From contig JACCGJ010000639.1 in the NCBI GenBank assembly GCA_013407085.1, positions 110,865-174,864 of the forward strand: a stretch of DNA of 64,000 nucleotides, read 5' to 3'. Of this stretch, positions 1 through 64,000 are shown piece after piece; the stretch's first letter is position 1; the number at the start of each line of letters is the position of its first letter. Under the pieces are notes generated by a model, which was given only the letters and a program-made list of their open reading frames with translations, was not told where the DNA came from and did not search any database. Source of the stretch: Atriophallophorus winterbourni. Its lineage: Eukaryota > Platyhelminthes > Trematoda > Plagiorchiida > Microphallidae. The translations under genes were made by a program, and so were the position numbers.

Positions 1-204
1 CACCGAATAATATCAAGTTTGAGGTTGTAGGCCACGGTTTGATAAGCTTGACACGACCGACATACAAGTAGAGGGGTTATACCTATAGGCTTGAACAAAA
101 ATCTCTATTTACATGCATTTGCATCCTATACACACACTTAGGATCAGATTCGTGCAGTTTGCGCTCATTAGGCAGACAGGGGAGGATCCGGATGCCTTTG
201 TATT

Positions 205-670
205 GAAGCCCATAGGTTTAACCCAACCACACCGCGTAGACACGTGATTGGTCGTACCAGGCATAACAAACAATGGCAGCCCATAACTTTGCCCGGATCA
301 TGATTGCCATTCCGTAGTTCACACATTCATACAGTGACTTACATGTTCAAATTTAGTCTACTATTTCTCCTTTTTTCAAGAGGATCGTACTCTTCAAACA
401 TGAGCGTAAGCACCACGAAAACGGTCGTGGGATGGAATTGCATGAAAAATCGATTTAATTTTATTCAAGGCCATGGGTTTAACCCATCTACGAGTGTGGT
501 CATTTGATTGAACAGGTTCGTAGTCCAATCTTATACAACAGTGGCTTACAATTTCAACCCTTCTTTACAATTTATTCACTGCTTCAGGGCATGCGTACCC
601 CGACCGATCGAACTGTCCCTACGTGATGACTACAAACAGCACGAAACCTGTCGTGGGGTGTGCGATGAAA
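205..670 (+). repeat. Tandem array of hammerhead-bearing repeat (about 2.5 units)
   Basis: Successive copies of one repeat unit. The cleavage-site trinucleotides of two neighbouring units lie at 424-426 and 650-652, a period of 226 bases. The block around 471 (a GGGTTTAACCC-like palindrome) recurs at about 211, so part of a third unit precedes them. The same unit occurs at 51.7-52.1, 55.3-55.5 and 62.9-63.1 kb. The first hammerhead (about 384-436) has a broken core; the second (604-664) is better kept. Unit boundaries are approximate. Confidence 0.7.
604..664 (+). ncRNA. Hammerhead ribozyme, type I, degenerate core
   Basis: The core reads GTGATGA at 623-629 where CTGATGA is expected, and GAAAC at 643-647. 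A two-base loop then leads to GTC at 650-652. Stem I pairs 617-622 (CCCTAC) with 653-658 (GTGGGG) over six positions, including one wobble. Stem II (CTAC against GCAC) is mismatched. The C3 change should abolish cleavage by known hammerhead rules, so this is a dead copy that still shows the fold. Confidence 0.6.
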
Positions 671-2913: not shown

Positions 2914-5900
2914 CTGTTGAAAAGGGAAAGATGAATACAAACAGTTAAACTGGCGACTGGGAGAAAGTTTAGAACATCAAATCCAAGCTACTTGTGGAGC
3001 AGTTAAACAGGACTGAGCAGTCATCAGGACTGATCTGATTCTCTCTCTGACCTGTATATCAATGCACAAAACCAACCTAGGTAGTTTTATTCAAGCTAAG
3101 GTATAAAAAAGATTGTTGCGAGACGAGCGAGAATCATTTGTCTCAGCGAACACAACGTAGAGAAAGCGTGCCAGCGGATTACTCCACCAAAAAGCGTACC
3201 TGAATGCACAATCGTCTGAAATTGTTATGCTGCAGTGGTGTAACACTGAATGCCATTAGTATCAAGCACAATTCAGATCATTTTATGTAGTTTTGTCTAG
3301 ACACAGCAAACCTGAGCGTGTGCAATGTTTTAATTGTGTGACACATTTTGCTTGCCTCGAGTTGTACAAATAAAAAAATAAAACTTTTAACTGTAAGGCA
3401 ATAACAAACGGGAAACAATCAGGGATGGGGATGTGACGAAAAGAATGTTTCCATAAGGGATAAAACCATCGTAAAACGGTGGTCTGCCGAGAAGTTGACA
3501 CCACTATCGAGTGAAGAAATAGTGAACACAAAACAGTAGCGAAATCGATTAAGCAATCACAAAGTTTGTCAAGATCGTGGCGCCGAGATAAAACACCGGT
3601 AGGATGACTATGATGATGATGATGAGTCACAAAGCTGATCCGGGCAAATTACAGCATAATCCTAGAATGCGCACCGTCAGCTTGCCCAGGTATACGCATT
3701 CAAACTGTGATTAAGCAGCAACTAAACCGTTTTATAACTCCACGAGAAATCGAACTTCAAATGGAAATCAGCAGTACACTTACTCGTAAGCTTTTCGCAT
3801 TGGAATTCGACACGTGTGCATGAGATAGGCGATCACGATAGTCGGGGAGCGTGATATTCCCGCCAAGCAATGCACAAGAACGCGACCATTGACAGATTTT
3901 ACTTTGTCTAAAATGCATACAAGAGGTACCGATAGAGAGAGAGAGAAAAACGCAAAAGAATGGGTAGTAATGCGGTTGAATGACCAAGCAAATACAGTGA
4001 TTAACAAGCACTATCGCCGATATAAACACGCGGGGTCCACACTCTACACGGAAACACACGGACGAGGTTACGAGTCGACAACGCACACACACACACACAT
4101 TAAATCGATTGAAGCCACATGCTGGCACGAAACACACGAGGAACGAGTAGTATGACGTCAGTGTGACAAGTTACCACATGAACTAGTTTGTGAGGTGATT
4201 AAACCAGTCTATGACGATATCGTTCGAGAAAGAGAAAGCAATCAGTTAATCCACCATTAGACACCCGCGCAAAACTGAGGTTTCAGATAACTTGGCTTGA
4301 TATAAGCACATCATACCAATTGTCGACAAACCTTCGACCTCGATGTTATCTTCCTCATCACCCAGTTATTAACCGTAAGAAACCGGGTAAGTTAAGGGTT
4401 GTACATGATAGTGCCGACAAGTTCGGAGGTGTATCACTTAATGATTGTTTATACCAAGGTCCAGATACACTGCGGAGCTTGGTTGGTTACGCTTCTGCGA
4501 TTCCGTAAGGAGGTGATCGCGCTCTCTCCCGATATTGAAGAAATGTTCATGCAAGTATCTCTTCCTGTTATTGACCGAGGTGCTCTGATGTTTTTGTGGT
4601 GGCCGAACATATCTCAAACTCCTACTGAATACCAGATGGCGGTTCATCCCTTTGGAGCTGTTTCGTCGCTAATTTGTCACGATTTGTTTATTTCTGTATT
4701 CAAGGGAGTTATGCAATAATCTTTATCGACGACATTTGCACTACGCTTTGGAAATGCGGTTTCACTTTGCGGAAATGGTTGTCTAAATGAAAGAGTGTTT
4801 TGAAAAATGTTCCAGATAAAGAATTAGCTCATTTGGATGGTAAATTTTATCTGAATCCCGTCCCCACTGATAGACACAATGGTGTTTATAACGTGACTGA
4901 ATTCTTTGACGTTGGACTCGATTTTCTCCGGACCGTTTTGTCGGTTACAAGCTCCGGTTTCAGTTCACACTCGACAGCAAAGAGTGCAGCGTTTTGGCTA
5001 TGTCCTCCTGGGTGATCACGAAACTCGTCCTCGACCCTACACCCGTCCGTACTTAGCTTCAGCGACAAGGCGGTCAAGTGGAGACCTGGCTGTCATTTGG
5101 AAGAGGGATGTAGATGCTCTGGATCTGCGCATCGTCTAAAGCGTTCGAACGTAAGAATGCGACTTTATTAAGATCTGCAACGATCTCGCCTCCGATCGAC
5201 GCGCGTGATTCGAAGCATCAATGAAGCCGGCTAATCCATCCTCTGACAATCAAGTCCAGCTTCTGGCCTACACGAGTGGCTCTCCGAGCACGGCGGAACT
5301 GCTTCTACCAACAGGAGAAGGGTCGAGGGCGAGTGACTGGCGCCTGAAAACCAGTTTGCTTCGGGCAGATGTAGCTCGTTAGCCTGGGAGGGTATTTCAT
5401 CTAAGGGTAGGTAAACCCTGATTTTGAACCTCCGCTGCCTTGCGGAATACCCAATCGCGGGAAAGGCTTCGGGAGAAAACCCTGAGGAAAAATCTCGCAA
5501 CTCCCTGCTGCCTTGCACTTGGTTGTGCAAAGGCTAGAGAAGCTGACTTGAACAAACGCCGATTGGTGCTGGGGACGCCGCTTTGTACTCAAATTCCCAA
5601 GAATCTTCATTGAAGCCGACTCATCCTCCAGGAGGAGATAGTCGCACAAAAGTAAAGTAAGGGGGCAAACACACAAAAGTAAAAGAAGGTAAATCGCGAA
5701 GGAATTTGAACCGCGGACCTTCGACTGTGACGTACAGGTCACTGTGGATGAATGATTTAGCATAATTTGAACACCAATAAACACATTCGATTAAAGTAGT
5801 GCAGGTTCGAAAACTTTGAAATGATGAATCGAAAAACGAATCGTTAGTGACATTATACCAACCACAAAACCGCTGCTAATATCGTGCACATTTGACTGTT

Positions 5901-8900
5901 GTAAAACATATATCTATAGTATATACACTGAGAACAAGATTTTATGTGTGTTGTGGACAACGTCAAGTCAGATAGGCTACGGCAATTTTAGTACACCAAC
6001 TGCCAACTGGGGTGTCACGATGGAAGTTATGATATACGTAGAAATGACTGTTGTGGCACACGAGCTATTCACGTCTCTGCACGGATGTGCAATCGTGCAG
6101 TACTTTGTGCTGTGCGGCTAACACCGTGCTAAATTGATTGACCACTGGTAGTGAGCTGCATCCTGAAACACGCTGGAGTCTCACTACCATTTGTATTCTC
6201 TATTTCTCATATCTGTCTAGGCCTGGGCAACCTGACAGTATCTTCGCCCACGTGCAGTCTCTGACTGTGCAGCACTTTGCCTGGATCAGGCTTGTGCTTT
6301 CATACATACATACTGAGCTATCCGTGTGTGGGGACTACAGTCACTGCAACACACACACACATAAAAAGGTGACCAATTCATCTGCACGCAACAACGGTAT
6401 TTGCCACGAAAAGGAATGAACGAAGAAAGCAAGCAAACGTACCGATGAACTGGAACGCATCGTCAAAGTGCGAAATCATGCTATCCACGTAATTATCTTG
6501 GATGGGAATGCGCAAGAAATTCGCTTCAGGAATATGCGCGGGACGTGCAATTTGATTGGAGACATTGAGAACATGAGTGATGCCGTACTGTTGACATATC
6601 GTCACAGATTGCGCATCCGATTGGCTGCCCAACACCACGTGAGGTAGAACAGGCGACGGGAGCTGATCGTCAGAAGGGAACGTGGCCAGTGCAGAAAAGC
6701 TCACTGAAGGCAACGAAGACGGTTTATTCCTGAAAGTGTAACGGGAGGGGGCATTGCAACAGTAGGAAGTCTAGAAACACATGAGTGGTTAACCTTGTGA
6801 AACTTGGAGGATGGTAATATCAGCCGTGATATGTTCGCTTTGAATCCAAGAGAACGGCATTGAACGAAAACGCTATGGTTACTACCCTGCTTCGGCCGAT
6901 ATGGACCAGGGACATACATTTCAAGCGGGTGATGATCTCACACTATCGTTTTCCTAACGTGGTTTTGTTTGTGACTTCTAACTCGGAATAGCTAGGTGTC
7001 CAGACTCTGACCGTTAAACTGGCTTCAGTTGGGGTGACCCTTCAACAGGTTACGGTCCTATAGATCGTAATACGCAATTGCTTGTTACCCTTTGTGATAT
7101 GATTCAAATGCGTGTTCAACGACAACCTTGTTGCAGACATTTTGGAGTTTTTGATTAATCTTGTTGTCAAGTGGCGAGGAAAGCCACAAGGAAGCTGTCA
7201 TGCTGATCCCGCTATACACGTTCACAGCACTTGATTGAACGCATGTTTGAGTCGACATGTAGGCACCTCGTCCCAGTGTGTCTCTCCTCAATCTTCCATG
7301 GGTTCAGCAAGTCCCACAATTCCACATCTTTTAGGAGGTTGTATGGCAGTTAACCACTTGGTACTTACTACCGATGATACAAACCGTGGCATTACCATAC
7401 AGTCCAAAACGGAAGTTACAAACTCTCACACAACGTTCAGAGACCAAGGTGCCAGTGTGATCACCGATCAGTAGTCCAGCGCAGCACCCGCTCTCATCCA
7501 GTCAGAAGATGACACTCGTTACTTGGCCTCCACTTCGTAAGGTTGAATGCCGAGAGCTTTCAGGTGTCACTTACAAACGTTTTCATATCGAATGTGTACT
7601 TGATGATTAAAATTCCCCATGGGGTAGATAATCTCGAACAGGACAATTTTCTATTCCACGAAAATGACCAGACGACAGTGTCAACATGCTAGCAGAATAA
7701 AAACACTAGCACGGCAATATACGCGGTTCCTTAAACAAACCATTGAGACAAACTGGACAGCATCAAGAGTTGACCAGTCCACAGATAAACGAGATACAAA
7801 TTCACACGAACCCAAAGTCAAAGCAATCGTCTAAACCAAGTACCGCCATATAATTCAGTTTAGGATAATGAACCAGAATAAACCACGTTCAAAGATTCGA
7901 CGGAAGATGGGTAAGCAAAGAAAGGATTCCTGCAGTCTTCTTGTAATCGAAGTTTTGTTTGTTGTTTGACAATAAAGCTGATCTCATCTACGATACATAC
8001 AACAAATAAGACGTCTGACTTCCTGTCGCGTGCAGTTCTTTGCACGATATCATCACCATTGCCATCAAGCCACGCGCAAATTCCAACAACCATGACCATT
8101 TCATTACTAAATGGGTCAGTGTGAGATAAGATCGCGCTGACCACCAACCATGGACTGAATTTGTCAATTTGTTCTGAATGCATTTCATTATACCAATGTA
8201 TTGTGGTGCTCATATCCCCACCCCTTACACACCACTACCGGGTTCTGTGTGTTTGTCGTCATCAGGTGGAGACAGTAAGATCAGTGAGCACTTGATTTAA
8301 TTTTTTTATAAAACAATAGACGTCGACTGTTTTTTGCCTTGTAATCCAAAGTGTCAATCGATCGTGCGTGGGCTTGCTTGCAACCGATTATCGTGGATGC
8401 ACGCTGCTGATCAAATAGGCCAACGGAGCTTGAGCGCCTACACATGAATTGACAACCCAAAGCTTATTCCAAGCTATTTAGTAGGAAGGTCAATTACAGG
8501 GGTGCATGATTTCACGGGGGTGAACAAGGCAAAGCGCCGTACAGTCAGAAACTGCACGTTGGCTAAGATACTGTCAGGGTGCCCAGGCCTAGACAGATAT
8601 GAGGAAGATAAAAACAGGAAATGGTAGTGAGACTCCAGCGTGTTTCAGCATCCAGCTCACTATCTCTGGCCAATCAATTTAGCACGGTGATAGCCGCACA
8701 GCACAAAGTACTGCACGATGTATGTAAGGAAGCACAGGTCTGATCCAGGCAGTGCCGTGCAGTCATAGACTAAGATGAGATCAGGTTGCTCAGGCTTAGA
8801 TAGATATGAGAAACGAGTTTAGATAGATATAGAAATGGCAGCGAGACTCTAGTGTGTTTTCATATGCGGCTCGGTAGTGGTGGCAAATTAATTTAGCGTG

Positions 8901-19720: not shown

Positions 19721-20237
19721 CCGGGGGTGGCAGTCGGGGTAAACTCCCAACGTCTATAAAATGCTCCCATATGGCGCGCGTCTCAAACAGCCTCTGGAAA
19801 CCAAGGCCAGCTTCTGAGCCCGGCGGAACTGCTTCTACCAATAGGAGAAGGGGCGCGGGGGATTGACTGGCACCTAAAAATCAGTTTGCTTCGGGCAAAT
19901 GGAGCCCGTCAGCCTGGGAGTGCTTCTCATCTAAGGGAAGCAAAACCCTGATTTTAAGCCTCCGCTGCCTTGTGGAATACTCGATCGCGAGAAAGGCTTC
20001 GGGAGAAAACCCGGAGGAAAAATTTGGAGCTGAGTCTCGTAGACAGTTAGGTGGTGCACACCACCTCTTTCTGGCATCTCCTTGTTGCCTAGCAGGTCGC
20101 ACTTGGTGGTGCAAAGGCTAGAGAAGCTGACTCGAACAAACGTCGAGTGGTGCTGGGGACGGCGCTTTGTACCCAAATTCCCAAGAATCTTCATTGAAGC
20201 CGACTCATCCCCCAGGAAGAGATAGTCGCATAAAAGT
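19721..20237 (+). repeat. Family B retroposon, near full length
   Basis: From ACCGGGGGTGGCAGTC to GAGATAGTCGCATAAAAGT, about 515 bases; the most complete copy on this strand. Confidence 0.65.
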
Positions 20238-28850: not shown

Positions 28851-29088
28851 TTTTTAGATATCTTGGAATGAAAAAATGAAATTGCTTGCCAGAAATTTAT
28901 TGTGGTGCCATGAAATAGATGCAGACATATGTAGAACTGTAATTAATTGCGAATCAGGTAAGCATAAAGTTTTCCGATATCCATCTTAATGGACACAATG
29001 GTCAGAGGCATGTGAAGCAGCGCATTCATGTGAATTATTTTAAAACAAATATTATGCATTAATGGTGATTGATTCTTATTCAAAATGG

Positions 29089-30010
29089 CCTGAAGTTTTT
29101 TCACACAAAAACAAAATAATAGTTTTAATATACTTAATCTGCGTAAAGTATTCAACCGCAATTGTTAGATATAATGACAGTCATTTTCATCTGCATGTTA
29201 CATATTGGTTGAAAAATAACACAACAAACATGTATAAAATAGCAGAAAATTTCGAATAGCAGACTGGAATGTCGAAGTGTCAAATGGAATTTTTCAATTC
29301 CACATTGGTTTGTATGTAAGCGAGTTCATGGTTGAAGGCTCATGCTAAAAAGAAAGCATACCACGTTTTAAAGTCTATCTAGATTACGTATATGATGTCC
29401 TCCCTGAGAGTACTATGTACAGACAGTACTTTCAATATGTATGTGTTGTTCATTAAAGCGTTGCAAGACAAAGAAAAATATTAGAAAATTGGCTAGCCAA
29501 AATTCACCTCACATACTTTTAAGAAATTAGCTATTATGCAGTTTGAGAGCCTGAAGTTTTTTCACGCAAATACCAAATAGTAGTTTTAATATACTTAATC
29601 TGTGTAAAGTATTAAACCGCAATTTTTAGATATAATGGCAGTCATTTTCATCTGCATGTTACATATTGGTTGAATAATAACACAACAAACATGTATAAAA
29701 TAGCAGAAAAATGTCGAATAGCAGACACGAATGTCGAAGTGTCAAATGGAATTTTTCAATTCCACATTGGTTTGTATGTAAGCGAGTTCATGGTTGAAGG
29801 CTCATGCTAAAAAGAAAGCATACCACGTTTTAAAGTCTATCTAGATTACATATATCATGTCCTCCCTGAGAGTACTATGTACAGACAGTACTTTCAATAT
29901 GTATGTGTTGTTCATTCAGGCGTTGCAAATCAAAGAAAAATATTAGAAAATTGGCTAGCCGAAATTCAACTCACATATTTTTAAGAAATTAGCTATTATG
30001 CCGTTTGAGA
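29089..30010 (+). repeat. 461-bp direct tandem duplication, two units
   Basis: CCTGAAGTTTTTTCAC begins at 29089 and again at 29550. The two units are nearly identical for about 460 bases. The first unit starts inside the integrase coding part. Confidence 0.9.
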
Positions 30011-30139
30011 GCTAATAATTACTATTAGGAAATATTCCAAGAAAACAGTCAACCTACAGGCATAAACAATTGCTTGAACATTGTGTAGATGAGATGGTAT
30101 CCAGCAATTAACTATTTCATTTCAAGAGGCTGCCGAAAC

Positions 30140-38400: not shown

Positions 38401-41400
38401 GAAATCACCATGCGCTTGTGATGTACATACATGATGGATATCGATCGAAGGAGGTCAACAACAAGTTCCCGCTGGCAATCAATACGTGAACTTGTGATAT
38501 AGAGGGATAGGGTATGTGCGCGTGTCACGTTTCTACCACACTTTCGAAACAAGTGTCTTAGTGGGTATCGTTCGGTAGACAATTTTATCGGCAAAAATAA
38601 TTTTGGGGCGTATCCCTTTTTGGCAAAGTCACATAGACCCAGACGTCACAGTCTTTCAGTGTATGGTACATTGCGGATACCAATCACTAACTTTCTCGTT
38701 CCGATGGCTAGAACGCGGTGGTAGAAACCGTCTATTAAGAGTGAGTTCACACGTCCGCCACACATCACAGTGCACGTTTATGAAACTGATTAACAGGTAT
38801 ACTTTACGATACGCAAAGTGTAAAATAATCACCGATTACAGTGGGAAAAATTAACTGTGATTTTGAAGCACACTGTTTAGTTCCAGACATTTGAACCGGT
38901 ATGTAGGGACTAATGACCTCTTATGAGTTAAAAGCATAAGAGCGATACGGTTTTGGGATATTTTATGTTTGTATGAACATGTCGGTGCGAGTGAAACCGG
39001 CAGTAAAAAATGGCCGTTCTAGCTTTAGAAACCTTAGGGGTAAGGCGCTGTGAGTGCCCGTTGAAGTCAACCCAACCGTTTCCGTGCTGTTTGCATGCGT
39101 CAAGTAGAAACAATACAATAGACCAGTACGAAATCTGATCGTACGGTCCCTATTTTACGCGAGCAAACAGCGAGAACCCGGCAGAAGGATGTTTGTGCTA
39201 AAACATGCATAAAAATACAGATATGTTGGTCATAACAATGGCATCAACCACATACACATCGCGCTTAAGTGTGATTAAAAACAAGTTCATGCCCGTCATT
39301 TCCATAAAAATTATGTCAACAGCATTTTTTCTGAATAAAGCATGTTCGACATTCCAACTTGCCTCATCTCAGTCAGATGCATCTTCAAAAATATTGAATA
39401 AAAATTCCCTGTGTTGTATTTTAACGAAATCGAGTTTCCTTTTGTTTAAAGGAACACGCGGAACATGAAGGCGGACGTTCCACCAAAATGGGGACCTCGC
39501 CGGTTGATGCCAGCTTTGCACAAGGTGATTTTTCAGCCAAATCTAGATCGTCGTTGATACCAACACCCCGCTACAACCACCACGTCGCAGACGAGGAGAC
39601 CAAATCCGTAATCCAGGGTATGCGTGAGTCTTAAACACCGACATTTGCTCGAAATTTGATTTAATGGTTTGCAATTCAATCTTCTTATGCTTAACACCTG
39701 AATTTATTCCGTACAATTGAGAAGAAATTGGTAAGAAGGTTTCGGTGTAATTGCTCGTCAAGTTCATTATAAAATCTCGTGAAATTCTTCAGCAAGCGAA
39801 TACGTAATTTTTGGAAAATTTTTTTCGGTAGTCATGTGAGAGATGCTTCAGGTATTCTAATGTGTTACTTAACGAGACAAATATCAAACTATGTGATCGC
39901 AAACTTACCTAAAAGTGATAGTAATAGCTAATGCGCTAGTCACCACGCACGCTTGTGATACGCAATGTGTTAATGTGTGGTTTAACCTAATAATGGCCAC
40001 AGCTATAAGTTATGGTTACTGTTGTTGGCAGATAAGATTAAACAGAACGTCCACTTTCGGGTTGTTTGGTACCCAACTGAGCGAATATGGTCATATTGAG
40101 ATGTTGGTCATATGACGTAGACTGGATTATGAACCAGGCATTCACGGACAATCAAGGGGTTCAAGTTTCACCGGATCTATGGATATCCGATCTCGACTAC
40201 GCCGATGGTGTAGTTGTTTTTGGCGAAAATGCCGAAATGCAGAAAAACGATTTTAGACCGCACCAGTAGCACTGCTGCGAAAGTCGGCCTCGAGATAAAA
40301 ACTGCAAAAACCAAAGCATTTTTATACCGTCACATCAAGCATCCAGCAAGTGAACGTCCAGGGATGTGCAATCCAGTACGTTCTAGTCTTCAAATACCTC
40401 GGTTCAAAGATATTGCCCAATGGTCAAGGGAAAGATGAAGTTAAGTTAAGGGTCAATCATGCGCACAATGCGTTTATACAGTTGAAAGGCACCCTTGGGC
40501 GCAGGCCCGAGATCAGTCTCAAAGATAAAATACGTGTTTATCAAGCCGCGATCCGCCCTGCAGTGCTTTATGAATGCGAGACGTGGCCGCTGAGGTCACA
40601 TGATTTACGGTCCTTAGAAGAGTTTTAAGACATTGGTCCTTAGGATAATCTTGGGCATCCGATATACTGACCAAGTGTCTAACGCTGCCGTTAGAGTGTG
40701 ATGCAACGGATTACCTCCACTTTCCGTTCACATCCAACGATGAAAACTACAGTGGTTTGGACACGTCCTCCAAAAGACAGATTCAGCGCTCACGAAACTC
40801 GTCCTTCACCCCAAACCCATTCGTACGTGGCTGTCGACTGCGAAGGAGGATGTGGATGTCCTCGGACTGTGCACTGTCTACGGCGTTTGCAGATGGGAAC
40901 GTGACTGGATTATAATCTGCAACAATCTCGCTTCCGATTCGAGACATCGATTTAAGGTGGGCTATTCCACCGGTGGAGCCAGTCGCACCAACGTAAAGTA
41001 AGTAGTATTGATGAGGGTTGACGTCCAGGTTTATCGAATATAATAATCAACCAAAGTGACGTGAATAATGAATTCGTAGATTGATCAAGTTTGCCGAACT
41101 TAAAAATCCATGGTGCTCAATATCAAGGTGACCGTTGAACATAATTGCCTGTCAAAATTTCGCTTCTCTTGCGTTAATTAAAATAACAGGTCTTCCGGAT
41201 GCTTTAGGGTTACAGTAATGTTTACGATGAAATAGAGATCGCGCATCCAATTGTTTTAGTTTTTTCACGTATGCCATCTCGTACAATTGCATGGATACTT
41301 CTTTCGTTTGATTGACAGGTAATCAACGTGACGAATTGTGTACTCCCGAAAACGTAGTGTTTTCACTAGATGAGCTTGATACTGCATCAGGTGGCTCAGA

Positions 41401-44400
41401 TGGCACGGAGATGCAAGACACAGGTGAGGACGATTGCAATTCAAGTAAGAAACGCTTCTGTTCTACGCCATTTACATTTTATCCAAAAGGGTCTACTAAA
41501 AAGTATATTCCGCAGTTTCACACCCGAAACCTTACCCGGGGACACGAAATAAGTGGACATCCTCTTCTGAAATATTCAATCCGAATCTGGGCATCATGGC
41601 TGCGGACGGATATTGATATCCCTGACATGCTTTATCATGGTGCAACCAAATTGATTTCATCTTACAATACGTTGCCTTTCCAATAGAGATTGTCTAAACT
41701 AAAACTACAAGATTTACGTAACGACGCGCACATTGTGATCTTATGTTTGCGTTTGCTAAAACCCGAGATTCTTACTCAAATACACAGAAAAATATTTAAG
41801 AGCTTTGAACATCTCTCATTGTTGATTCGCCGTGATTTTTTCTCGGGTAGAATCTCTTTCACTCAGAATGCCTTTACTGAAGAAACCATAAGCTCGGTAT
41901 CCGTTGTGGTTTTCACATCAAAGGTCGACGAATATATGACGATCCATACGCCATGTAAGGGTCCGTATCAACTCTCGCGAAATTATACATTTTTACTCCG
42001 TATACCTGGACACACTGTGGTTTTTAATAAGCTTATTGCTTTTTCTACAACGAAAATGTCGGATTCTATTCTAGGTATTGACAGATCTAAGAGAGTTCAA
42101 ATCCAGAAATATTGTTGCATTTCGAAAAACATTCGTGATGCTGTTTTGTCTCAACAACGAAAGATGGCTGAGATAGCATGTAAAACAACAAAAAATTATG
42201 TGCAGATTAGAAAAACTCAACGAGTTTTTAAAATAATTCAATTTATTTAGAGCGAGTTAAATGCAATCAATTTTATGGGCAATGCTCCATTGATTGATTC
42301 AAATGTCTTCCATTGTATTTCGGACAGGAAGCGCGAGTTCGTTATCCGAAATCGAGGAATGCATTGCACAGCATTCGAGATCCTCCCGAACTCCAAGCAC
42401 AATCCCAACCAACGGTTCACCCAGTATCACGGAACAAGTTTCCAAGGAATATACCGAGGATTTTGTGTCAGATACCGGCGAAAGTAGAACGATTAAAGAA
42501 CCAGATCAGCATTCTGCCAGCACTGTTTCGATGCACGCAACCAGGAGCAGCACGAAGACTCAAGCAAAGATCCGCAAAGGTTCGGTTTAAATTGGGTTAA
42601 TATGGCGTTGATGGACGAGTATATATTTGAAGAAATGTAAGAATTGACGTATGAAACTACAGGAAAAGTCTATTCTCGTCTTTGATATTAACCATACATT
42701 CGTGTTCTCAAGCACGCATCTACATGTCTATGTATTTTCTTCTGGTATGAACGCCATATAATTACAAAATACGAAAGTTGATAAGATTGGGTGGGTCAGC
42801 TGTTTAATCGCACGTCACACCAAGAACAAGAAATCGTGTAAAGCAGAGCATTGTAGCTTCAACGATTGCTTTCCCCACGGAACTTCCATTTTTATAACGA
42901 CTCGTGTGAAAACGCAAGAAAGTAATTACAGGTTTGCCGACAGGCTCTACACGTATAACTTTATAGTAATTTACACGGTGTGCGTTTGTGTAGCGCTTCC
43001 CAAAAAATAATCGAAATTGAAGTTAAACTAAATTAAACGAGTTTTTTTTTACCAGTTTTTGCAGTGCACACAGCCACCAAAACCGGTTTCTGGCTTTTGC
43101 CGTCGTCAGGTGGAGAGAGTAAGATCGGGCTAACTGAGTCTTTTAACAGTGGAACAGTTTGTTTACCACTTTCCATCTGTTTCAAGGCTCACTGAACCTG
43201 ATCGTACTGTCTCCACTTGATGACGGCAAGCAACCAGAAACCGGTAGTAGAGTGTAAGTGTAGGGGATGTGAGCACTGCAGAAACTTGTCATTTCCTTTG
43301 AGTTGCTCGGTTGACTTATATCCAGTGTGGATTGATCATTCAAAGTTTGGCTGTGCCAATCTGATTAACAGTGGTAGACGAGTTTTTGTTTAATTATTCG
43401 TTTCCCGGCCACTTATATATTGTTTAATCTAATTGCTTAGATTATTTTTATACACTTACATTTTAATTTTTACCAGCTATGATTATTCTTAAGCTCGATG
43501 TTTTTTTAGACCATTAAACACCATGAATTGCCTTGGAACTAAATTTTACTGAACCAATTGATTGTGTTGCTCACGTTCCATGCACTTATAGGCTTGGATA
43601 GGATATTACAAAAACTAATTTAGCACGATAAGAATAAAGGTAAATGTTTGATAAGTCTTCCTCGTCTTGATTACTACGGCTGCAAATGAGATCTTAAAGT
43701 TCATGGATCAAAAGCGGAATTTTCCGAGGATTCTTAATGAACTCACAGTGTGACAGATGTATTATTATTATTATTACACAAGTCTTTACAGGCGATGTGC
43801 CAACAAGTATACCACGAAGAAGGTACATGATGAAAGAAAAAAAGGAAAAAAGTGTTTTTTGTCTGTTTACACATGCCGTTTTTGATCTTATTTGGATAAG
43901 GGAGGGTCACTGATAAACGGGAACACAAACACGGCAGGATTCTCGCCACTGGTTTCTTTCTTTTGCCATCACACTGAGTGTTATCAGCCACATATCTTCA
44001 CGGTCCCTCGGACCCCACCCGGGTAAGCGCGATGCTCCCACGATGGCTAGTGGGGCTGTTAGACGCTTGAGGGTCTTCCGCCAGGTATTCCTTTGTCCGC
44101 CACGGCGACGTTTCTAATCAGGTCCAGCGATAGCAAAAAGAGCTAGGCGAGGAAGGCGTCGCTCATCTATACGGAGAACGTGCCCCAGACATCTCAGCTG
44201 GCACATGGATATATGATCGGAGAGTAGCACAGAGTGATCGCCGAGGAATGCCCTCCTGACGTCATCGTTTCTGACTCTGTGTTGCCAGCTTAGATGAGCA
44301 ACACTCCGTTGGCAGCGATGATCAAACGTCGATAATCCTCGACTATCGGCTTGACGCAGAGTCCACGTCTCGCAGCCATACAGTAGAACTGCTCGTACGG

Positions 44401-50205: not shown

Positions 50206-50227
50206 CCTAATGCTATCGTCGAACAAC

Positions 50228-50588
50228 TCCGCCAAGGACGGTCCCAAGCCCGTCTGAGAAAGGAGGAGGGTTGGGCTTAGGGCTAGCAACCCTATCCCGT
50301 AAAACCTACATTGCTACGGAAACGACGACAACAGATCCGTGGTCGGTCATGTCTGCAGGATGGATCCCAGTTCGCATACGAAGGTAGCCATGCACTGGCA
50401 TCCGCAAGGTAAACGAAAAAGGGGACGGCCCAAGGAAACTTGGCGCAGAACTTCGGAACGCGAACTACATGCACAAGGATTCACGGTGCAGACGGCAACG
50501 GAAGCAGCGGCAGACCGGAACTACTGGCGTGGGGTTGTCTTCGCCTCATGTGCCACCCGGCACGGAGAGGACTGACTGAATGAATGAC
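50228..50588 (+). repeat. Family C short retroposon derived from a LINE 3' end
   Basis: Starts at CTCCGCCAAGGACGGTCCCA and ends in GACTGAATGAATGA. Inside, the frame reads VGHVCRMDPSSHTKVAMHWH, then GKRKRGRPKETWRR and FASCATRHGED. This is the C-terminal DNA-binding-like domain of an RTE-type LINE. Copies at 54.2, 56.4 and 58.0 kb share the same start. Confidence 0.8.
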
Positions 50589-51453: not shown

Positions 51454-52905
51454 GTAATTTATTTCATTTGCCTACTTACTATCATAACAGTAGTTGCTTT
51501 TTATGGTATATTAATTGAAGGCAATTTGATACTATTTGTTGTACTGAAAAGGTTGGACGTTTTGACAATTTTATCACAATTTGTTAATCACAGACACCTA
51601 ATAAAGTCTGGAATTTAGTTCATTGTCTAATTTCAGTGAATATTCAAAATTAAATTCTATTAAATAACTATAAATTAAATGTAAAATTATTCTCTTTTAT
51701 ATAGGTTCGCGATAGATAATCTAGGGTTCTGCCCATAATCGCTATAATTACACGAACCACAAATGGTTTCTGATTTATTGTTCCACTTCAGGTGGAGACC
51801 GTAAGATTGTGTACAGTGAGCCTTGAAACAGTGGATAAATGGTAAACAAGGTTATAGTTGAATGCCACTGTTACATAGGGTTCGTACAACGAACCATGAT
51901 GTTGAAACACAGTATCACATAGTATTTCCTAGTCAAGCACTGGAGGCCCTTATGGACGGCCATCCCCCGCACTTACACACCACTACCGGTTTCTGGCTGT
52001 TTGCCGTCATCAGGTGAAGACAGTAAGATTAGGTTCAGTGAGCCTCGAAACAGTGGTGAAGTGGTAAACAAAGTTATACTTGTACACCGAAGTTATTATG
52101 ATTGACTCAGCGAATTTCAGTGTTTCACTACTTTACCATGAAGCTAATCTTAAGTAAACCGTCCACTGTTATAGCGACGTGACAAAGTTACCGAATGTAT
52201 CATTTCTTAACACATATCTAGTCTTTATTGCACCATTCTATTCTCGGATGTCTCAGTTACTGATGCTTGCAAAACAGATAATTCAAATTTTCACCGCAAG
52301 ACTCCAGTACAAAATAATAACCTTATAGTCTATATAGATTGCGTTATTTCTCATGCTCCTTTCGTGAAGAAAGACTACCATTCATGGAGCGTGTTTTACG
52401 AAAAATCGAGGCCATGGAACATTCACCTCTGAAACTTATTCTTGTGACTACTCATAAGTAATAAGTCTATCGGAATATTCAGGACGTGTGAGCATAGGAT
52501 TACAATGGTGATGGTCCGGGGTTGGAAACTGATCCGAGTTGAATGATGTGCACTTGAACTGAGCTAGAATAGGACAGAAACTCGAGTTCAGTGCTTCCAA
52601 TGTAGACCGTCATGATGGCTAATAGTTTTAGATTTCCTTCGGTCGACGTCGACCATAAGCACATGTAGTGATGAGCAGTAACAAGCATTAGTAATGAAAT
52701 CTTCGCAATAACGACCCGTATTTACGCGTATACTAAATTTACAACCATCAAATATTCGGGCAAGTAAACCAAAAACTATTTCGTTCTTTGTGCAGAAATT
52801 TTTCAGTGAAATTCCTGGCCATTTGTTGGATGACTCGAAATACGACGAGTGGCTACGTGTCGCACAAATCCCGACGGAGATGGAAAGGTTCGCTGAAATG
52901 GAGGC
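51289..52905 (+). CDS. RhoGAP-domain protein (ARHGAP20/TAGAP-like), two exons, partial
   Basis: Accelerates GTP hydrolysis by a Rho-family GTPase, judged by its domain. Exon 51289-51453 has acceptor CACTTCAG and donor GTAATT. It encodes SLFVIVFHHGKDIEGIFRRS, with the GIFR motif whose Arg is the catalytic finger, and ends CSAVIASAVLK. Exon 52796-52905 has acceptor TTTGTGCAG and donor GTAAGT. It encodes KFFSEIPGHLLDDSKYDEWL and RFAEMEA. 'VIASVLK.FLR.IP...' is how ARHGAP20/TAGAP read at this join. Phases agree (0). Neither the upstream domains nor the second half of the RhoGAP fold was found in the window. Confidence 0.85.
51454..51744. other. RhoGAP intron, nothing recognised
   Basis: AT-rich; the open frame is read-through from the exon. 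Confidence 0.4.
51755..51815 (-). ncRNA. Hammerhead ribozyme, degenerate
   Basis: The second hammerhead of the tandem pair. It keeps the GAAAC block (rc of GGTTTC, about 51767-51772) and the CCACCTGA start, but stem II and the rest of the core are lost. Confidence 0.5.
51972..52027 (-). ncRNA. Hammerhead ribozyme, type I, core intact
   Basis: Minus strand: CTGATGA at 52013-52007; stem II 52006-52003 (CGGC) with 51997-51994 (GCCA), three pairs plus a C-A mismatch next to the core; loop AAACA; GAAA at 51993-51990; C, two-base loop, GTA at 51986-51984. Stem I has an inner helix (52017-52014 with 51983-51980), an internal loop with UGU on the 3' side, and an outer helix CUUAC/GUAAG (52027-52023 with 51976-51972). 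The C-A pair may weaken activity. Confidence 0.75.
52086..52625. other. Intronic, nothing recognised
   Basis: No coding segment or known repeat between the hammerhead dimer and a small LINE scrap. Confidence 0.4.
52626..52680 (-). mobile_element. Family D LINE, terminal scrap
   Basis: Carries CCTTCGGTCGACGTCGACCA. Confidence 0.55.
52796..52905 (+). CDS. RhoGAP second exon
   Basis: Continues the RhoGAP fold after VLK; ends in phase 2 at GC/GTAAGT. Confidence 0.82.
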
Positions 52906-53221
52906 GTAAGTTGTCCTTGAAATGATGGAATGATTGGTTGAATATTTCTGGTTGACCTTGAAACATTTATTTGATTGGTGGACGCGCAAATGACTTTTAT
53001 TATGCGAATTATGTCGGGTTAATCATTGGCAAATTGCGTTTTCGGTTTAAACAACTTTTACGTTATCATTGAGAACAATAGGAACGAAGTTATTCATGTC
53101 AAACAGCCCTTTCTGATTCCCGTATTCATTGCGTTATGAATCACACCGCTACCCCCGAATGGCACTACATGAACGTATCGGTATATGTCACACACAGACG
53201 CACACACTACTTACTTGTACT
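52906..53221. other. Intronic, nothing recognised
   Basis: No further RhoGAP exon recognised here. Confidence 0.35.
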
Positions 53222-53727
53222 TGTACTTGTGTATGACTATCTCCTCCTGGAGGATGAGTCGGCTTCACTGAAGATTCTTGGGAATTTGAGTACAAAGCAG
53301 CGTCCCCAGCACCACTCGGCGTTTGCTCGAGTCAGCTTCTCTAGCCTTTGCACAACCAAGTGTGACCTGCAAGCAGCAGGGAGTTGCCAGACTCTGTTCC
53401 AGGTTTTTCCTCAGGGTTTTCTCCCGAAGCCTTTCCCGCGATAGGATATCCCGCAAGGCAGCGGAGGTTTTAAATAAGGGTTTTCCTTCCCTTAGATGGA
53501 ATGCTTTCCCAGGCTAACGAGCTCCATCTGCCCGAAGTAAACTGGTCTTCAGGCGACAGTCACTCGCCCTCGCCCCTTTTCCTGTTTTTAGAAGCAGTTC
53601 CGCCGGGTTCGGGGAGCCACTCGTGCAGACCGGAAGCTGGACTTGGTTGTCAGAGGCTATTTGAGACGCGTGCCATATGGGAGTATTTTATAAACAGTGG
53701 GAGCTTATCTCCACTGCCACCCCCGGC
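53222..53727 (-). repeat. Family B retroposon, near full length, reverse
   Basis: Tail side at 53222 (TTGTACTTGTGTATGAC), head at TCTCCACTGCCACCCCCGG (53727). Confidence 0.65.
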
Positions 53728-54190: not shown

Positions 54191-54578
54191 AAATATTGCC
54201 ATCAACTCCGCCAAGGACGGTCCCAAGCCCGTCTGAGAAAGTAGGAGGGTTTGCCTTAGGGCTAGCATCCCTATCCCGTAAAACCTAAATTTCTACGGAA
54301 ACGAAGACAACAGATCCGTGGCTCGGTCATGTATGCAGGATGGATCCCAGTTCGCATACGAAGGTATCCATTCACTGGCGTATGCAAGGTAAACGAAAAG
54401 AGACGGCCCAAGGAAACTTGGCGCAGAACGTTGGAACGCGAACTACATGCACAAGGATTCACGGTGCAGACGGCAACGGAAGCAGCGACAGACCGGAACC
54501 ACTGGCGTGAAGTTGTCTTCGCCTCATGTGCCACCCGGCACGGAGAGGGCTGAGCTGAGAGAGAGAAATATTGCCATC
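54191..54578 (+). repeat. Family C short retroposon with 13-bp target duplication
   Basis: AAATATTGCCATC at 54191-54203 and 54566-54578 flanks an element of 362 bases (54204-54565). It starts at AACTCCGCCAAGGACGG and ends in a GA-rich tail. The flanking repeat proves that this is the full inserted unit, not a random LINE remnant. Confidence 0.9.
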
Positions 54579-55299: not shown

Positions 55300-55500
55300 C
55301 TGTTGGATAAGGCTGGTACGAACAACCTGTTCAATCTCATGTAGACAGGTTTTGAACCCATGATCATGAAGAAACAAGCTCATTCGCATGCATTTTAATC
55401 ACACACACAGCACGACCGGTTTCATGCTGTTTGCACATATCAGGTATTTACAACACAGCAGGAACCGGTCGTTGGAATATGATGGAAAGACATGCAAATG
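55300..55500 (-). repeat. Hammerhead-bearing repeat, single degenerate unit
   Basis: The minus strand keeps GTGC, an AAACA loop, GCAT, GAAAC (55423-55419) and GGTCGTG, as in the copy at 62.9 kb. The core has decayed to CTGATAT (55443-55437). The body shares the 'ACAGGTT..GTACCA.CCTTATCCA.CAG' block with 63.0 kb. Confidence 0.6.
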
Positions 55501-59529: not shown

Positions 59530-60265
59530 GTTTATAAAATGCTCCATATGGCGCGCGTCTCGAATAGCCTCTGACAACCAAGTCCAGCTTCTGGCCTGCA
59601 CGAATGGCTCTCCGAGCCCGGCGGAACTGCTTCTGCCAACAGGAGAAGGGGCGCCTGAAAGCCAGTTTGCTTCGGGCAGATGGAGCTCGTTACCCTGGGA
59701 GGGCATTTCATCTAGGGGAAACAAAATCCTGATTTTAGACCTCCGCTGCCTTTCGGGATACCCGATCGCGGGAAAGGCTTCGGGAGAAAACCCTGAGGAA
59801 AAATCTGGAACGGTCAGTTGGTGCACACCACCTCTTTCAGGCTACTCGCTGCTGCCTCGCATGTCGCTCTTGGTTGTGCAAACGCTAGAGAAGCTGACTC
59901 GAACCAACGCCGGGTGGTGTTGGGGACGCCGCTTTGTACACAAATTCCCAAGAATCTTCATTGAAGCCGACTCGTCCTCCAGGAGGAGATAGTCGCACAA
60001 AAGTAAAAGTAAAGGGTGGTGTTGGGGACGCCGCTTTGTACCCAAATTCCCAAGAATCTTCATTGAAGCCGACTCATCCTCCAGGAGGAGATAGTCGCAC
60101 AAAAGTAAAAGTAAAGGGTGGTGTTGGGGACGCCGCTTTGTACCCAAATTCCGAAGAATCTCCATTGAAGACGACTCATCCTCCAGGAGGAGATAGTCGC
60201 ACAAAAGTAACATGATTCGAGACATCCATGAAGCCGGCTATTCTACTGTTGGAACCAGCCACACA
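59530..60265 (+). repeat. Family B retroposon with internal 102-bp triplication
   Basis: Family B runs from TATAAAATGCTCCATATGG. From 59912 the last 102 bases, including the AAAAGTAAAAGTAAA tail, occur three times (starts 59912, 60014, 60116). A short RTE 3' end follows (about 60216-60265). Confidence 0.8.
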
Positions 60266-61873: not shown

Positions 61874-62111
61874 ACACGGATGTGCAATCGTGCAGCATTG
61901 CTGTGCTGTGCGGCTAACATCGTGCTAAATTGATTGGCCAACGGTAGTGAGCTGCATGCTGAAACACGCTTTAGTCTCACTACCATTTCTATTTCCCCCT
62001 CATATCTGTCTGGGCCTGGGCAACCTGACAGTATCTTAGCCCACGTGCAGTCTCTGACTGTGCGGCACTTTGCCTTGACCGGGCTTGTGCTTTCATACAT
62101 CATACATGCAT
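61874..62111 (+). repeat. SINE-like family A, near full length
   Basis: From ACACGGATGTGCAATCGTGC to a CATACATCATACATGCATAC tail. It lies between two arms of a short perfect inverted repeat (GTGTCAGTACAAACAC and its complement). Confidence 0.75.
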
Positions 62112-62323: not shown

Positions 62324-62885
62324 GTGTGCCAGAAGCGAAACGTTACCAATACATTACACTCCAGCCGATTCATTGCAAACTTTCGTTTTCATTAATATAA
62401 TTTCCCGGTCAGTCAAAAACAGTTCCAATATTTTGCTGGCTTATCATATGTTGCAAAATGATTCAATGTTTGTCGATAATCGAGCTTTCTCGTCAATCTT
62501 CTCATTCTGCCTCAATTACTTAGCATGGCGTCACTTGGTCTTATCGATTTCTAAAACACACACACACACCTACCTGCTATTTCTTTCATACAAACCCACC
62601 AAAGTGTCGTGCTTGCCTCTGTTATTTGCGTACGGGCGAAAGAATCGGAAACCTTTATTTGCTTTGTGGTATTTGTTTTTCGATGTCATTCAATCGTGCA
62701 ACCGACTGCACAGCGCGTGTCACCTGATCGACCTGTGACCTTGTCTGAAGCGATTAGACTCCAGTCTAGAGGTCACGTTTGTGGCAGTATCGCCGCGTAG
62801 CGGTCTGTTTCAATCTCATCAGTTTGAAACCAGCCTAGTCGAATTTACTTGTGTATTTTAAGTGGGGTTCTTCTTGAATTCTCCC
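62324..62885. other. Nothing recognised
   Basis: The plus frame at 62322-62738 is open for 138 codons without a recognised motif; a CA run lies at 62553-62567. Confidence 0.3.
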
Positions 62886-63110
62886 CCAAGCGCTTTATCT
62901 GAACTGCATGGGGATCCTGATCGTACTGTCCCTGCCTGATGAGTGCAAACAGCACGAAACCGGTCGTGGGGTGTGTGTGATGGAGACGGTGTCGTTACAA
63001 CTCATCTGTGTGGGGTGGGTACATGAACTGAACAGGTTGGTGGTACCACCTTATCCACCAGCGGCCTATATTAACAACCTTGTTTAACATTCCTCCACTG
63101 TGGTGTTCGC
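62886..63110 (+). repeat. Hammerhead-bearing repeat, best-preserved unit
   Basis: About 225 bases. The hammerhead is near the left end; the body then matches 430-600 and the complement of 51.8-52.0 kb (blocks GAACAGGTTGGTGGTACCAC and AACCTTGTTTAACATTCCTC). It stops at CCTCCACTG, where the next unit's hammerhead would begin, and unrelated sequence follows. Confidence 0.75.
62920..62981 (+). ncRNA. Hammerhead ribozyme, type I with minimal stem III, fully conserved core
   Basis: CTGATGA at 62936-62942; perfect stem II, 62943-62946 (GTGC) with 62952-62955 (GCAC), loop AAACA; GAAA at 62956-62959; C62960 pairs with G62963 across a two-base loop; cleavage triplet GTC at 62963-62965. Stem I: 62930-62935 with 62966-62971 (six pairs, two G-U), a symmetric UGU/UGU internal loop (62927-62929 with 62972-62974), then 62920-62926 with 62975-62981 (seven pairs). 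G10.1-C11.1 is kept. Predicted cleavage after 62965. The tiny stem III suggests that it works best as a tandem or dimer. Confidence 0.85.
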
Positions 63111-63125
63111 GAGCTTATACTTTAC

Positions 63126-63384
63126 TTTTTGTGTGACTTATCTCCCCTCCTGGAGGATGAGTCGTCTTCAATGAAGATTCTTGGGAATTTGGGTGCAAAG
63201 CGGCGTCCCCAGCACCACTCTGCGTTTGTTCGAGTCAGCTTCTCTAGCCTTTGCACAACCAAGTGCGACCTGCAAGGCCGCAGGGAATTGCCGGAAAGAG
63301 GTGGTGTAAACCAACTAACCGTCTACGAGACTCTGCTCCAGATTTTCCTCAGGGTTTTCTCCCGAAGCCTTTCCTACAATCTGG
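63126..63384 (-). repeat. Family B retroposon, 3' part
   Basis: Tail side at TACTTTACTTTTTGTGTGAC; head cut off after CTCCCGAAGCCTTTCC. Confidence 0.65.
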
Positions 63385-63409
63385 TGTTCTGTGTATTATC
63401 TAAACTTGT

Positions 63410-63573
63410 CACTTGTGTGCGACTATCTGCTCCTGGAGGATGAGTCGGCTTCAATTAAGATTCTTGGGAATTTGGGTGCAAAGCGGCGTCCCCAGCACCA
63501 CTCGGCGTTTGTTCGAGTCAGCTTCATCTCTAGTCTTTGCACAACCAAGTGCGACCTGCAAGGCAGCAGGTGT
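63410..63573 (-). repeat. Family B retroposon, shorter 3' part
   Basis: Second tail-side fragment in the same direction, close to the first, cut off after CAAGGCAGCAGG. Confidence 0.65.
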
Positions 63574-64000
63574 TCGCGTTCGTAGTGTTGTGGACGTTCG
63601 TCATAGGGCTAGATGACCATCCATCAGCAAAAAACTTCTTTCGAAGCGTCTTGTAGTTGGAAATTTGCTGGGTTATATACGCTTGTCTGTCAGTTCACCA
63701 TCACTCCCGCGGTGGTTGAGTCATGTTATGCCTTCTCCGTGAGCGGTTTCTCATTGGTCCATATGTTGCAACCAGTTGGAGATGCTGGTTAATTGAATTT
63801 ATTGTTGAGTGCCACGCTTCCAGTAATTCTCGTGTCCGTCAGTCTTTTCCTCTGGCTAATATTCTTGTGCGGTCCCAGTCGAACTGATGCCCAAATTGAT
63901 CAACATGTATCGAGATCAGTGAATTCCGGTCATGTCTGCGTACGGCCAACTGGTGTTCATGTTGTCTTGTGCTGAGTTTGCGACCCGTTTGTCCGACGTA
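63574..64000. other. Nothing recognised
   Basis: No gene or repeat family identified up to the window edge. Confidence 0.3.

Follow-up and report, generated by a model that had tools for sequence, protein, structure and literature searches.

Animal non-LTR retrozymes carry type I hammerhead ribozymes and are expressed as circles of 170-400 nt (PMC7229834). In metazoan genomes they are non-coding units of 150-450 bp arranged in tandem, as anything from a dimer to a long multimer, with a GC content below 50% (Cervera and de la Pena 2020, PMC7229834), and their insertions are flanked by target duplications longer than 4 bp (PMC7229834). According to the accessible parts of the same paper, most invertebrate retrozyme hammerheads have a stable helix III or cut efficiently alone, and the newt and axolotl hammerhead HHR_Amex1 has a one-pair helix III with a palindromic tetraloop, its monomer cutting 6% in an hour and its dimer much better. 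Among other repeats, those of Nematostella are described with 15-bp duplications and those of schistosomes with a full tRNA (PMC4918200, in extract).

We propose that a hammerhead copy within the 64-kb stretch of DNA analysed here (the window) is an old copy of a non-autonomous, non-coding retroelement of the metazoan retrozyme type, which would be cleaved as a dimer, pass through RNA circles and borrow the reverse transcriptase of another element. We give this reading a probability of roughly three in four.

The hammerhead and its relatives in the window

A sequence-only reading of the window had placed a type I hammerhead at 62920-62981. It was borne out and its coordinates are correct: the motif has the conserved core, an open-ended stem I and a cut position after H17. 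All core nucleotides are present, as had been claimed (CTGATGA at 62936-62942, GAAA at 62956-62959, and GUC with C17 at 62965), and stem II is indeed perfect, with GTGC at 62943-62946 and GCAC at 62952-62955 forming 4 bp around the loop AAACA. Stem III is nearly absent, again as read, with CCGG at 62960-62963 lying inside an ACCGGU palindrome; since a two-base loop cannot close, it is in effect one A-U pair capped by the palindrome CCGG. The cut is predicted after C62965, so that the downstream product would begin at 62966, in agreement with the earlier claim. In the unit numbering used below (u), the cut lies between u55 and u56. The inner helix of stem I contains two adjacent wobbles (G62934-U62967 and U62933-G62968) and is paired in 88.6% of cells across 38 copies. 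The ribozyme part of this copy is intact on paper, and a pattern of core, 4-bp stem II and GUH has one match in the window versus none in 60 dinucleotide shuffles. The features of the locus are as follows.

62417..64000, no strand assigned: larger repeat carrying the window copy and its flanks; may reach beyond the window
62906..63101, plus strand: mobile unit in the window, from about u229 to about u220-u221, with an internal deletion
62911..62982, plus strand: hammerhead including outer stem I (72-position family model, u1-u72; profile match, covariation on 38 copies)
62930..62935, plus strand: 5' strand of the stem I inner helix, pairing with 62966-62971 (6 bp)
62943..62955, plus strand: stem II, 4 bp with loop AAACA (read from the sequence)
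62959..62964, plus strand: ACCGGU palindrome replacing stem III (read from the sequence)
62965..62966, plus strand: predicted cut between C62965 and G62966 (hammerhead consensus)

The motif had also been assigned to a 225-bp repeat with relatives across the window. The relatives are there, in a total of 12 copies, but the size was not upheld: the unit measures 233 bp elsewhere and about 196 bp here, where it stands singly with an internal deletion of about 30 bp that removes the region in which most other insertions end. The larger repeat around it is 91% identical to another locus (L002) over 1625 aligned positions, and because the window copy and its flanks are common to both, it was copied as part of that larger repeat.

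The 12 copies, counting the hammerhead described above, lie on both strands, and each has E < 1e-8 with a rebuilt profile. They include two tandem pairs (218 and 223 bp apart) and two head-to-head pairs, and belong to subfamilies A and B, which are distinguished by their stems I and II. Three of the 12 (62913, 52039 and 43134) retain the core letters; when stem I, stem II and ACCGGT are required as well, under strict criteria, 62913 alone passes and 11 of the 12 fail. The relatives, all found by profile, are listed here.

124..195, minus strand: degenerate relative with unit body at 1-193, facing a unit piece at 193-289 (plus strand)
383..434, plus strand: degenerate relative, first member of the tandem pair spaced by 218 bp
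601..667, plus strand: relative, second of the tandem pair 218 bp apart
8218..8285, minus strand: degenerate relative, subfamily B
39073..39120, minus strand: degenerate relative, head to head with 39129..39201
39129..39201, plus strand: degenerate relative, head to head with 39073..39120
43065..43134, minus strand: degenerate relative (B), head to head with 43191..43265; core letters kept, loop II short by one base
43191..43265, plus strand: degenerate relative (B), head to head with 43065..43134
51750..51816, minus strand: degenerate relative (B), second member of the tandem pair spaced by 223 bp
51966..52039, minus strand: relative (B), first member of the tandem pair spaced by 223 bp; core letters retained, 3 of 4 stem II pairs
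55396..55468, minus strand: degenerate relative with unit body down to 55254

In subfamily B (for example 51966-52039), the base of stem II is C-A, in some copies U-A or G-A, versus G-C in A, and an A occupies the cut position.

For outer stem I, the UGU/UGU internal loop proposed earlier is recovered by single-sequence folding of the window copy, but a CUGU/UG register pairs better across the 38 copies, with 78.3% of outer stem I cells paired versus 66.2%, and 85.0% versus 79.5% when all hammerhead pairs are counted. The folding energy of the hammerhead in single-sequence folding is not significant (36 of 200 shuffles are equally good), and we do not treat such folding as decisive. The circle folds modestly better than shuffles, 8 of 200 being as low. 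In the predicted monomer fold, the core CUG pairs with CGG of the stem III stretch, a pairing that would hinder the monomer.

The covariance-model hit that the sequence-only reading had named as a check came out divided. At the gathering score of RF00163 (34 bits), there is no match in the window or in the six further loci scanned, whereas at the level of E-values the motif is recognised, with 29.6 bits at 62930-62971 (E 4.8e-5 for 1 kb and 0.0031 for the whole window) and a best score of 32.9 bits in array copies elsewhere (L029, L034 and L020). The Rfam cut-off is a curated threshold and no feature of mechanism, and we think that the family evidence outweighs the sub-threshold score. The result is a hammerhead family without stem III that scores just below the Rfam cut-off.

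Other repeats share the window. Sub-threshold matches to the type-P1 twister (cut-off 67.2 bits) lie on the plus strand at 50220-50274 (44.6 bits) and 54199-54253 (34.2 bits), and on the minus strand at 56721-56665 (22.3 bits) and 58396-58342 (38.6 bits). Each overlaps, or precedes within 30 bases, an ORF with nearly the same RPKETWRRTLERELHAQ tail, which we take to be LINE-like; a Pfam search of one RPKETWRRTLERELHAQ tail gave no match. The matches resemble short elements composed of a twister head and a LINE tail, and RTE elements are described, in the accessible part of the source, as having truncated twisters at their 5' ends (PMC7761336). A coding-like repeat (LLLEDESASMKILGNLGTKRRPQHH...) occurs at no fewer than six window sites (5497-5659, 19991-20235, 53214-53436, 59760-60007, 63114-63385 and 63404-63570), and at 59912-60210 it forms a 102-bp tandem of about three units. 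The repeat at 62000-62106, up to about 107 bp long, is 78-93% identical at ten other window places (near 6207, 1216, 58512, 8602, 46437, 50195, 9806, 46609, 19530 and 17641), and a 462-bp unit forms a tandem pair at 29088-30012 with 95% matches.

A 233-bp family in the host genome

A 301-base query of the host assembly (537,331,230 bp in 15,840 contigs) gave at least 80 matches, which is a lower bound since 40 of 1835 candidates were scored. The hammerhead profile found 84 copies in 30 fetched loci that are partly overlapping or redundant. Copies on the same strand mostly follow one another at 220-250 bp, most often at 233, and the 233-bp unit (consensus GC 0.455) occurs both dispersed and in head-to-tail arrays. 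Contig C14155 opens within an array of at least 15 units that extends to 3542, and long homogeneous arrays are present at L029, L031 and L034; such arrays might have been enlarged later by unequal exchange. Three 10-kb stretches away from known matches, taken from contigs that bear matches elsewhere, contained four further matches, one of them weak (13.8 bits). If the sampled stretches are typical (16 copies in 94 kb, the window included), the genome would hold tens of thousands of mostly decayed copies. Outside the host, no relatives were found in a phage collection with a 201-base query, nor in viral contigs or bacterial and archaeal genome contigs with exact patterns. A protein search aimed at the identity of the host gave three unnamed proteins, two of them with a Utp12-type domain; judging by such fragments, the animal may be a flatworm, probably a trematode.

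Many of these copies are well preserved. An intact core, stem II, at least five of six stem I pairs and ACCGGT are combined in 34 of 83 distinct copies, these being the rows without ribozyme gaps (16 of 99 were dropped). Position by position, ACCGGT is conserved in 90-94% of the 99 distinct copies, which makes a dimer requirement for cleavage plausible on sequence grounds.

The family also bears marks of a folded RNA. In 38 copies of both subfamilies, 26 hammerhead cells are changed on both sides versus 12.0 in shuffles (0 of 500), and when the partners are slid, pairing falls from 85.0% in place to 27.5-48.5%. The second pair of stem II is changed on both sides, from U-A to G-C or G-U, in 9 of the 38. 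The 12 window copies alone are 71.4% paired, with 12 doubly changed cells versus 6.7 (10 of 500 shuffles). In the body of the unit, a hairpin at u155-u171 has 93.5% of its cells paired in 33 copies, with 9 doubly changed cells versus 2.7 (0 of 500 shuffles), and a G-C to C-G exchange occurs in 8 of the 33, some from the same array; the rows had been selected with a sequence pattern biased towards the hairpin, which yielded 42, of which 33 were used. Related copies inflate cell counts, and the counts of pairs and pair types are, according to the tool, the safer measures. By these, doubly changed hammerhead pairs (5 versus 4.5; 237 of 500 shuffles) and hammerhead pair types (54 of 500) are not above shuffles in the 38 copies, and neither are doubly changed body-hairpin pairs in the 33 (2 versus 1.4; 213 of 500). 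Consensus identity between A and B is 76% in the hammerhead, 64% in the body and 74% over u151-u233. Conservation of 94% in the hammerhead versus 82% in the body (21 pairs, 7 loci) was rejected as proof of selection, as the loci were picked by hammerhead. Taken as comparative sequence evidence, the case that the unit is maintained as a folded RNA is good but not conclusive.

Insertion ends, target duplications and inverted pairs

The 3' ends of the insertions are clustered. When mapped with a profile, the 3' end falls within u93-u108, some 45 nt beyond the cut, in 24 of the 28 main insertions, against 2.9 expected over the visible u79-u233 (p about 3e-20, with the windows for 3' and 5' ends chosen after the data were seen). 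The loci were picked by hammerhead similarity, so ends inside the hammerhead are invisible, and the test was redone with that limit. Four insertions end elsewhere: the window copy (at u220, as does L002), L012 (u202), L033 (u11) and L042 (u210). Ten weaker second matches outside the 28 end at u61, u76, u76, u77, u76, u87, u95, u190 and u197, with one cut by the locus end; several of them belong to subfamily B, where the A profile breaks off at u76-u77. One of the nine ends at u93-u108, and with all nine added the count is 25 of 37 versus 3.8 expected. The 5' ends are variable, 12 of 28 lying at u220-u232, just past the 3' arm of a hairpin in the consensus fold that is drawn differently in the fold of one single copy. 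Insertion lengths range from about 100 to more than 1000 bp with the same 3' phase, and ten short copies of 97-118 bp extend from u221-u232 to u95-u108 between flanks that are not alike. These counts exclude duplicate or near-duplicate loci (L002, L009, L014, L015, L023, L027, L030, L039, L045 and L046), loci truncated where a contig or slice ends (L029, L032 and L034) and five head-to-head pairs, which are reported separately.

Target duplications with a score of at least 8 were found at 9 of 30 insertions versus 1.7% of 870 mismatched flank pairs, and at the looser score of 6 at 12 of 30 versus 19.9%; a clear duplication (score at least 8) is absent at 21 of the 30. Of the nine duplications, three surround head-to-head pairs (L005, L037 and L038). 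This test omits L031, L042 and the L001/L002 repeat, all of which remain in the end count.

Eight distinct head-to-head pairs were identified (L005, L008, L019, L021, L026, L031, L037 and L038), three of which also contribute their main arm to the 28. In all eight, one arm has its end at u90-u106, and the other has it, where wholly visible, at u197-u210 in six of seven (L019 ends at u78; L031 is cut). Three of six pairs (L005, L037 and L038) lie within one 12-15 bp duplication with one or two mismatches, as would be left if target-primed reverse transcription were primed a second time from the opposite strand; L019, L021 and L026, each pair likewise tested as a single insertion, do not lie within one duplication. 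The inserted sequence is unbroken across the cut (u55/u56), hence the template was ligated or uncut, and some insertions exceed one unit across the cut (L020, 257 bp). From a linear monomer that stops at the cut, ends at u55 would be expected. None of the longer insertions has such an end, and the single copies in the sample could hardly show one. Insertion apparently proceeded through target-primed reverse transcription, with 5' inversions, from an RNA template that was either circular or an uncut multimer. A Pol III reading of the T-run where insertions end and of a B-box-like hairpin was also considered.

Proposed life cycle, rival origins and known systems

How might such a unit move? In the RNA, stem III of the type I hammerhead would comprise no more than two pairs. 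The ACCGGU palindromes of two RNAs, or of two neighbouring units, probably come together as a common stem III, so that each partner cuts the other; this would release 233-nt monomers that are then ligated into circles. Either the circle or a multimer left uncut would serve as template for the reverse transcriptase of another element. Synthesis would begin at a favoured position some 45 nt downstream of the cut and break off at varying points, in many cases at the base of a predicted hairpin. More tentatively, and at somewhat less than even odds, the insertions may record the passage from RNA circle to DNA, with a start at u93-u108 (at or after the T-run), a second site at u197-u210 used from the other target strand to give the head-to-head pairs, and copying for less than one or for several rounds, often up to the hairpin foot. 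If this is true, the family would show directly, at the genome level, that a circle made by a ribozyme undergoes target-primed, rolling reverse transcription; the many copies, the clustered 3' end past the cut and the inverted pairs make the RNA-to-DNA step testable from genome sequence. A literature search covering titles, abstract openings and few subscription papers, which therefore says little, found no maps of retrozyme insertion ends.

The hammerheads could instead be parts of Penelope-like terminal repeats, of the minimal type without helix III, with the 233-bp units as their remnants. Minimal Penelope hammerheads reportedly cleave RNA as dimers, as the title of a 2017 paper by Lunse has it. 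Penelope copies are often inverted or truncated, which would fit this origin. The missing helix III and the tandem occurrence also match Penelope hammerheads as described in extracts of two papers (PMC7761336, PMC6155905). This origin is nevertheless unlikely in our view, given uninterrupted head-to-tail runs of at least 15 units and single insertions with unlike flanks, arrangements that require no coding element around each motif. Moreover, 10 window ORFs searched against Pfam, a small sample, gave RVT_1 in three, DSPc in one and GIY-YIG in none. The analysis identified no Penelope or LINE partner of the unit, though a Penelope element may serve as its carrier or helper.

A tandem satellite spreading at the DNA level, with the hammerhead as a passenger without a role, would account for the long homogeneous arrays at L029, L031 and L034. 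We judge it very unlikely, since it is at odds with dispersed copies flanked by target duplications, whose 5' ends vary while their 3' ends cluster, and with paired changes in two separate RNA helices. That the motif is a chance or wholly decayed match without function is scarcely credible: the sub-threshold Rfam score and the 11 of 12 window copies that fail the strict test speak for it, but the 60 shuffled windows gave no match and many intact copies exist elsewhere in the genome. The single window copy may itself be silent.

The retrozyme interpretation is our preferred one. The arrays, the unit size, the GC content of 0.455, the target duplications and the covariation all support what the sequence-only reading had suggested, a small metazoan retrozyme, and we regard the 233-bp unit as a new family of a known kind, the weak-stem-III metazoan non-LTR retrozyme. 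As in those elements, a tandem unit of a size within 150-450 bp carries a type I hammerhead, GC is below 50% (0.455), and target duplications exceed 4 bp (9 of 30 versus 1.7%). Unlike schistosome repeats with a full tRNA, the family has no tRNA as scanned: ARAGORN found none in the window or in nine loci, and hence no tRNA in the unit as in Sm-alpha-like repeats. It nonetheless resembles Schistosoma Sm-alpha (PMC6155905, PMC4918200) and the hammerhead W-elements (PMC8490949), as far as the accessible parts of these sources describe them, in having a type I hammerhead in repeated, putatively mobile trematode DNA. With minimal Penelope hammerheads it shares the lack of helix III, whereas those, in the extracts at hand, occur in the pseudo-LTRs of coding elements or dispersed, and the 233-bp family is a stand-alone unit in arrays. 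Unlike most invertebrate retrozymes described in the accessible parts of the survey, it has a nearly absent helix III, as in amphibians (PMC7229834). It is like HHR_Amex1 in a helix III that is in effect one pair capped by a palindrome, and differs from it in that the HHR_Amex1 unit is 330-350 bp long, has another sequence and belongs to vertebrates (PMC7229834, in extract).
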